DNA of 64,000 nt from Nannochloropsis salina CCMP1776 (lineage: Eukaryota; Sar; Eustigmatophyceae; Eustigmatales; Monodopsidaceae), in NCBI GenBank assembly GCA_004565275.1, contig SDOX01000021.1, positions 188,560-252,559 on the forward strand, in the 5' to 3' direction. Of the stretch, positions 28,538 to 30,042 are shown in pieces. Every line of letters starts with the position of its first letter. The stretch's first letter is position 1. The position numbers were made by a program, and so were the translations under genes. Below the pieces are notes generated by a model. That model ran no database searches and had not been told where the DNA came from. It was given only the letters and a program-made list of their open reading frames with translations.

Positions 28538-30042
28538 ATGACCGGCAAGAGAGAAAATGTTATCTCGAGCTCTGCGAGTTCCCGGAGTTTTTGCCTTCTA
28601 GTCCCTGTGTTCTGTGTCCTATTTCACGCTAGCGCGTACATAAACAGGTACACTCTCGTCATTGGTGGTGGTATGGTGGAGGCCGATGGCAGAGAAGCCG
28701 GAAATGCGGGGCAGGACCGTCGCGGCCCCCTCTCCGAACAAAGTGAAGCCCAAGTCGCGAATAACGACCGAGCGCAAAATATGCCGGGACCCGCTAACAA
28801 TCTAGGCCGCTGGCCGCTATTCGTCCTCTTTCTTGCCTACGCGATGCTCCTCTACGCGCGCGACGCAACCTCGGAACCCAGCAAGGGACGGAAAGATGCG
28901 ACGAATTCCGCGCCTCCCCTTGGGGACTCTGGTTCTTCCTCTGTCGAGATTTTACCGGAGGCTCCACTCCATGCCGCACGCGCACAAACATCCTCGCAAG
29001 ACACAAAATTCTATGCCTTTCGGGCATGGACAATCGAAGGCACCAAAAATAAACATTCGCTTCAACCACACCCGCGAATCGTCGTGCAATACTGCACCAG
29101 CTGAGGTGAGGACTGGTGAGGTTCGGGCACCTTCACGGATTACATTTATGCATTCCCGCAATTTGCGCCGTATTTGTATATTGTCTTCATTTGTAAGAAA
29201 TTTAATCCTTGTGAAACGGCATGGCTTGTTCACACCCAGGCATGCGGGGGAATTTTTTGCAGCTTTCCAAATTCCTCCGGCATCACTTGCCTTCCCTCGA
29301 CCCCTCTCACTCCTCCACCTCCGAGCCCGCCACCTCCGGCCACCCGGAGCACTTCCCCCTCATCCACGGAGAGAACTACCCGCCGCCTCCTTTCGCGCAA
29401 TTTCTTGTCTCGGTCATGGGCTACGGACAGCTGACGGCCGTCCTCCTCATGATTGCCGGGCGGCCCCTTTTCCGGGCGGCGGGGGTGACCCCGACGCCGG
29501 CATGGTTAGAGGCACTCTTGTCGAACAAGGTACGGGAAGCACCGTCTTGATTTCTTTTTACATTTAGACCGGAACGATCTTGATGGCTTGCCTGACTGGC
29601 TACCCTTTTCTCTCATTATGACCCTCTTTTCAACCAGTGGTTGCCTTTTCCTCTTTCCCCCCTCCCTCCCTCCCTGCCTCCCTCCTTCCTCCCCTCTTCC
29701 TCCTATTTTGACGGCCCCTGGCATCTTCTGCTCCACTCACTCTGATGCCTTATGCCCTCCATCCCTCTCCCTCCCTCCCTCCCTCAGCTCCAGACGTTGG
29801 CCGTGGTCCTCCTTGGGAACACACTGGTCACCTCGCTCTCCGCAACCGGCGCCTTTGAAGTCACTTACTACGAGCCCTCCCCTTTTCCCCCGGCAGAGGA
29901 GGGGAGGGAGGGAGGGAGGGAGGGAGGGCAGGAGGACGAGGCATGGATTTCGCACCTTATCTTCTCGAAGTTGGCCATGGGCCGCATGCCGACTGGCGAC
30001 GAGATCTTGACAGGCTTGGCGGAGAGGGGTCTGGTCGAGTAA
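28538..30042 (+). CDS. Selenoprotein T with in-frame UGA selenocysteine
   Basis: Three exons: 28538-29105, 29240-29529 and 29788-30042, about 370 residues if the TGA at 29102-29104 is read as selenocysteine. Exon 1 ends RIVVQYCTS-TGA-G, the CxxU redox motif of SelT (CVSUG in animals). The next G completes across the first intron, and exon 2 reads MRGNFLQLSKFLRHHLPSL, then LIHGENYPPPPFAQFL, matching the SelT GENY block. Later come AGVTPTPAWLEALLSNK, LLGNTLVTSLSATGAFEV (the STGAFE signature) and KLAMGRMPTGDEIL. SelT is an ER-membrane thioredoxin-fold oxidoreductase. The N-terminal hydrophobic segments (SFCLLVPVFCVLFH; WPLFVLFLAYAMLLYA) give a signal or anchor. A GREGGREGG repeat (29900-29925) sits in a surface loop. 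The start could instead be ATG 28673, giving 325 residues. A SECIS hairpin is required in the trailer but I could not fold one by eye. Confidence 0.9.
29102..29104 (+). other. UGA codon read as selenocysteine
   Basis: TGA in the sequence tactgcaccagctgaggtga. It follows Cys-Thr-Ser, forming CxxU, and is followed by a 5' splice site (exon end 29105). SelT-specific sequence continues in frame on both sides, so this is not the gene's end. Confidence 0.85.

Follow-up and report, generated by a model that had tools for sequence, protein, structure and literature searches.

A selenoprotein T gene with an in-frame TGA one base ahead of an intron in Nannochloropsis salina

Genes of the window and structure of the SelT gene

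The window is the whole stretch of Nannochloropsis salina CCMP1776 DNA that was analysed, 64,000 nucleotides in length. It contains a SelT gene with three coding exons on the forward strand, followed downstream by a voltage-gated chloride channel gene (32661-35477, +; PF00654, 4.7e-64). Also present on the same strand are genes for a GidB-type rRNA methyltransferase (17644-18825, +; PF02527, 1.6e-25), possibly organelle-targeted, and for the small subunit of DNA primase (49612-51210, +; PF01896, 2.8e-51).

The coding part of exon 1 of the SelT gene (28538..29105, +) begins at an ATG at either 28538 or 28673 and ends QYCTS-U-G, where U is the predicted UGA selenocysteine codon (29102..29104, +) of a CTSU (CxxU) motif. 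Intron 1 (29106..29239, +) is 134 nt long, of the GT-AG type and in phase 1, and starts one base after the UGA. Exon 2 (29240..29529, +; 290 nt), assigned from the spliced frame and the alignment described below, carries the stretch that follows the redox motif, the sequence GENYPPP and a hydrophobic segment. Intron 2 (29530..29787, +; 258 nt, GT-AG) was placed from the frame, and two N. oceanica protein models differ here: P0003 reads through it and P0004 is spliced. Exon 3 (29788..30042, +), also assigned from the frame and the alignment, contains the TGAFE and IFSKLAMGRMP motifs and ends with the stop codon TAA at 30040-30042.

The window sequence from 29093 to 29105 is TGC ACC AGC TGA G, and the donor GTGAGG follows from 29106. 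The acceptor of intron 1 reads ...CACACCCAG, with 29239 as the last base, and exon 2 starts at 29240 after CAG. When 29105 is joined to 29240 the frame is kept, and the next residues are G-M-R-G-N-F-L-Q-L-S-K-F. The spliced frame comprises 325 codons from the ATG at 28673 or 370 codons from that at 28538, with a single TGA, and it ends at TAA; the unspliced reading runs into a further stop within intron 1. Because SelT homology resumes directly 3' of the TGA, the split of the gene at this codon is more than a chance arrangement.

A sequence-only reading of this DNA had proposed that the exon ends Cys-Thr-Ser-TGA-G at a splice donor and that SelT sequence continues in frame in the next exon. 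The sequence and the spliced frame agree with this proposal, and the presence of an in-frame TGA ahead of a GT-AG intron in a SelT gene is confirmed. The distance had been given as two bases between the codon and the exon-intron junction and is corrected here to one base.

Family assignment and gene models in relatives

The spliced protein is matched by the Pfam family PF10262 (Rdx) at 1.8e-9, with 38.1 bits against a cut-off of 22.6, and by the NCBIfam SelT/SelW/SelH family TIGR02174 with 37.3 bits against a cut-off of 34.2. The 70 model positions of the Rdx match are spread across residues 135-316, which indicates that the SelT-type insertion is present. This insertion and the C-terminal motifs set the protein apart from SelW and SelH. 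The CxxU motif appears as CTS-TGA at 29093-29104, and the protein sequence shows hydrophobic stretches.

The part of the protein encoded after the TGA was used as a query and matched 11 proteins, among them P0004 of N. oceanica, which is named selenoprotein t (2.3e-38), P0007 (5.7e-29) and the MMETSP transcript P0008 (8.3e-17). Several of the matching proteins begin just behind the Sec site. The window protein was aligned with eight of the 11 (P0005, P0006 and P0009 were left out), of which one is named selenoprotein t and one selT/selW/selH-like. The alignment has 20 invariant columns, including those of NYPPP, TGAFE and FSKL. No SelT was matched among solved structures, where only C17orf37 appears (E 0.023), and no SelT was confirmed among viral contigs. 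Judged by its sequence, the window protein is a SelT.

Like SELENOT of algae and animals, the window protein has the Rdx thioredoxin-like domain, CxxU, the long insertion and the conserved NYPPP, TGAFE and FSKL motifs; the UGA stands at the U position, and the gene has a candidate SECIS in its 3' UTR. It differs from them in a long N-terminal extension, in its occurrence in a lineage reported to be without selenoproteins, and in the intron one base after the UGA, a position read from this gene alone. A six-frame search with PF10262 missed the split SelT itself; its single match was a SelW-like Rdx protein of the same genome (L001; G000:C42:404794-405021, minus strand). This protein belongs to the same Pfam family as the window SelT but is a Cys member, with the sequence YCTGC (CxxC) and neither a UGA nor a SelT-type insertion.

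The protein models in the databases are broken at the TGA. The window-encoded model P0001 (188 aa) has the frame of exon 1 and stops at the TGA at 29102-29104, ending QYCTS; P0005, which is also encoded in the window, begins inside intron 1. The model P0002, approximately 90% identical to P0001, ends QYCTS as well, as at a stop. The model P0006, also of an approximately 90% relative, begins at an ATG equivalent to that at 29242 and reads MRGNFLQLSKF. The like distance of P0002 and P0006 suggests that both come from one genome. Because the first ends at QYCTS and the second resumes at MRGNFLQLSKF, the break at the TGA followed by conserved coding sequence is found outside this genome also. The sequence-only reading had predicted that gene callers would stop at 29104 or start a false gene at 29242, and the models bear this out: P0001 has the premature end, P0005 has a start in the intron, and P0006 has the start equivalent to 29242.

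The two N. oceanica type models have the same C-terminal half, which they share with the window SelT at identities of 38% (P0003) and 48% (P0004) in the search table. They differ from it in that CxxU is skipped or misread, as known from the proteins alone. The first residue of P0003 is a Val situated a few positions past the motif site, as would be expected if a stop lies upstream. With its frame shifted by one base, a segment of P0004 could accommodate HPRIVVQYCTS-stop-GMRGNFLQLSKF... at 24 of 31 positions, in a test that allowed several residues per position and both stop and Cys at the Sec place. The hidden sequence QYCTS-stop-G was recovered in 8 of 2000 shuffles of P0004. The P0004 model seems to pass through CxxU in the wrong frame, so that the database protein is without the active site, and its odd segment looks like the product of a gene finder avoiding a stop.

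P0004 also bears on the alternative that another splice choice removes the UGA and yields a protein without the redox motif. The database model has just such a structure, but its odd segment is consistent with the motif in a frame shifted by one base, and splicing of this kind would eliminate CxxU, the defining site of the family. This alternative is considered very improbable.

Candidate SECIS hairpin and selenocysteine machinery

A type-2-like SECIS candidate is located at 30392..30485 (+), as identified by a pattern scan, by folding and by an in-register alignment to the Rfam family SECIS_1. In this hairpin, ATGAC (30415-30419) lies opposite AGAG (30460-30463), AA at 30433-30434 is unpaired, and a ministem CCAC/GTGG is formed. 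Helix I has 19 bp with one bulge, the internal loop is GTGATGAC/AGAGAAA, and helix II contains two mismatches and a bulged A.

The scan covered both strands of the window and required RTGA, GA and the unpaired AA. A first, strict script returned no candidate. The scan was loosened after this null result (0.93 candidates per 1258 bases, mean over 100 window segments) and then re-set, so that the scoring was fixed after an unsuccessful first attempt. Eighteen distinct candidates were obtained in the window, the best of which has a summed energy of -44.4 kcal/mol (30415-30465); it lies on the same strand as SelT, with a core that begins 373 nt downstream of the SelT stop codon. The runner-up, at -41.0, is not far behind; this second SECIS-like hairpin is located at 19523-19593 (+), and no SECIS_1 is listed there by Rfam. 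When the sequence from 30043 to 31042 was shuffled, a candidate of any kind appeared in 83 of 300 shuffles and one as good as the best in none. A scan of other loci gave 25 candidates in 167,664 bases, with a best value of -25.7. The candidate region folds with -43.9 kcal/mol (z -3.06), a value equalled by none of 200 shuffles.

With a 136-base query, Rfam aligns the same core to SECIS_1 in register at 14.1 bits, where the gathering score is 35, with an E of 3.5 over all families. SECIS_1 is not listed at E 10 for a longer query of 1971 bases from the 3' region, and it is absent from the listings for three controls equal in length to the 136-base query, one of which is the scan runner-up. A SECIS of type 1 or 2 had been anticipated 3' of the gene, and the candidate found there is good by its shape, with a score far under the Rfam gathering value. 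The hairpin may work as a SECIS.

The sequence-only reading had also looked to the same genome for EFsec, tRNA-Sec, SBP2 and SPS2. A gene for EFsec is present on contig C70 (L009). One exon is matched by human eEFSec at 1.7e-57, the next best family being SelB at 3e-26, and further exons are visible by eye. A SepSecS gene is present with 366.5 bits against an equivalog cut-off of 224.85. PSTK is matched at 1.6e-30 with 106.5 bits, a value under the model cut-off of 382.35 and obtained on a partial protein. None of the three contains a stop inside the matched stretches, and they are not known to have another role.

The tRNA-Sec was not found with Rfam RF01852 at the default setting or at E 10, with 53 of 2479 first-look candidates scored. 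Three RF01852 matches up to E 10 fall on a tRNA-Ser and a tRNA-Met of contig C102, taken as mitochondrial, and on a tRNA-Ala of contig C14, and were rejected. Four search patterns returned 2 places, 2 places (anticodon and T arm), 0 places (5' half) and 25 places (intron-bearing), none of which is a tRNA according to ARAGORN. The loci L021, L022 and L024 were scanned with the same program, and tRNAs appear in L024 only, where both are tRNA-Ala; no tRNA was reported in L019, in L020 or in the window. This null result does not show that the tRNA is absent, because 53 of the 2479 candidates were scored and intron-bearing forms of tRNA-Sec are known from Daphnia (PMC5330540). The search for SBP2 with PF01248 gave five matches, none of them SBP2; they were read by eye as NHP2, eS12, eL8 and SNU13.

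A SelD-related gene with the sequence RCGGCGSK is found in this alga with EFsec (L015-L018; G000:C37, about 85,900-88,070, minus strand). Four pieces of the locus match selD, the best at 3.7e-15 and below the cut-off, and the frame upstream reads MRCGGCGSKVG, a Cys form. Taken as one stretch, the region scores 110.5 bits with selD (cut-off 125), which ties with 110.6 bits (cut-off 700) for fusion_not_SelD, the family of an "oxidoreductase/SelD-related fusion protein, not SelD"; against solved SelD the match is 3.5e-11. An initial assignment of SelD as present was withdrawn on account of this tie below both cut-offs. For SPS2, then, the genome offers one SelD-related protein that fits fusion_not_SelD as well as selD. 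We infer that a tRNA-Sec, an SBP2 and a selenophosphate synthetase exist in this organism.

The failure of these searches to reveal a tRNA-Sec, an SBP2 or a clear selenophosphate synthetase, together with the weak Rfam SECIS score, would fit a UGA that is a true stop, with the gene decaying or producing a truncated N-terminal protein only. Against this, the frame is maintained through exons 2 and 3, which retain the invariant alignment columns, the approximately 90% relative shows conservation on either side of the UGA, and EFsec, PSTK and SepSecS are free of stops in their matched stretches. A true stop is judged unlikely. A missing tRNA-Sec would also fit a UGA that is translated as Cys or Trp through ordinary reassignment or suppression, independent of a SECIS. 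Nothing was found that favors such a reading, the Sec-specific EFsec, PSTK and SepSecS are present, and the UGA is situated exactly at the U of CxxU; its probability is considered minimal.

Proposed decoding and meaning for the lineage

The preferred reading, to which a probability of roughly 0.87 is given, is that of a nuclear SelT gene of Nannochloropsis (Microchloropsis) salina in which the UGA at 29102-29104 is decoded as selenocysteine by means of a SECIS in the 3' UTR. Computation provides the gene structure, the family, the position of the UGA and the genes for EFsec, PSTK and SepSecS. These results and the approximately 90% relative agree with the original proposal of a SelT with a UGA-encoded selenocysteine split by an intron. 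The SelT gene is well supported and the decoding apparatus partly so.

The UGA would specify the selenocysteine of the CxxU redox motif in a thioredoxin-like protein that has hydrophobic segments. Once 29105 has been spliced to 29240, EFsec would deliver Sec-tRNA to ribosomes for decoding of the UGA, under the direction of the hairpin at 30392-30485. The Ser-tRNA(Sec) would be phosphorylated by PSTK and converted by SepSecS, and the SelD-related protein is a candidate enzyme for the supply of selenophosphate. Selenocysteine is likely to be inserted at this codon.

Nonsense-mediated decay (NMD) may enter when selenium is short. In the rule as stated in PMC4911915, the relevant distance is 50-55 nt upstream of an exon junction. 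The UGA is 1 nt from the exon 1/2 junction, which would not mark it as premature because this distance fails the rule; it is 291 nt from the exon 2/3 junction, which would mark it as premature because that distance meets the rule. The sequence-only reading had held that NMD rules matter at the junction adjacent to the UGA. That junction is too close to count, and the one 291 nt downstream would take its place. If the mammalian rule applies here, a shortage of selenium would lead to termination at the UGA, and the exon 2/3 junction would then render the mRNA liable to NMD.

A survey of algal selenoproteins from 2020 states that no selenoprotein gene was detected in Eustigmatophyceae, and it builds a freshwater-and-back scenario on this loss (PMC7539508). 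No report to the contrary was found among the papers listed from an open-licence library or in passages of PMC11092101 and PMC10215577. The SelT described here is new in a lineage reported to lack selenoproteins; the family itself is known. A SelT with a UGA, together with EFsec, PSTK and SepSecS, argues that Eustigmatophyceae still use selenocysteine. Should this hold, selenium supplied to the oil-producing genus Nannochloropsis has a protein target.

The database entries illustrate a blind spot, in that a UGA one base from a splice donor breaks both exon-level searches for TGA and gene models. The survey may have overlooked SelT because the UGA is at the end of an exon. As a tentative and rather doubtful extension, Nannochloropsis may have lost no selenoprotein use at all and may have retained a functional Sec apparatus that serves very few proteins, possibly no more than SelT. 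Its tRNA-Sec would be unusual enough to escape standard models, a cyanobacterial-style SelD-related enzyme would serve as the source of selenophosphate, and surveys would have missed the Sec codon because no whole codon follows it in its exon.
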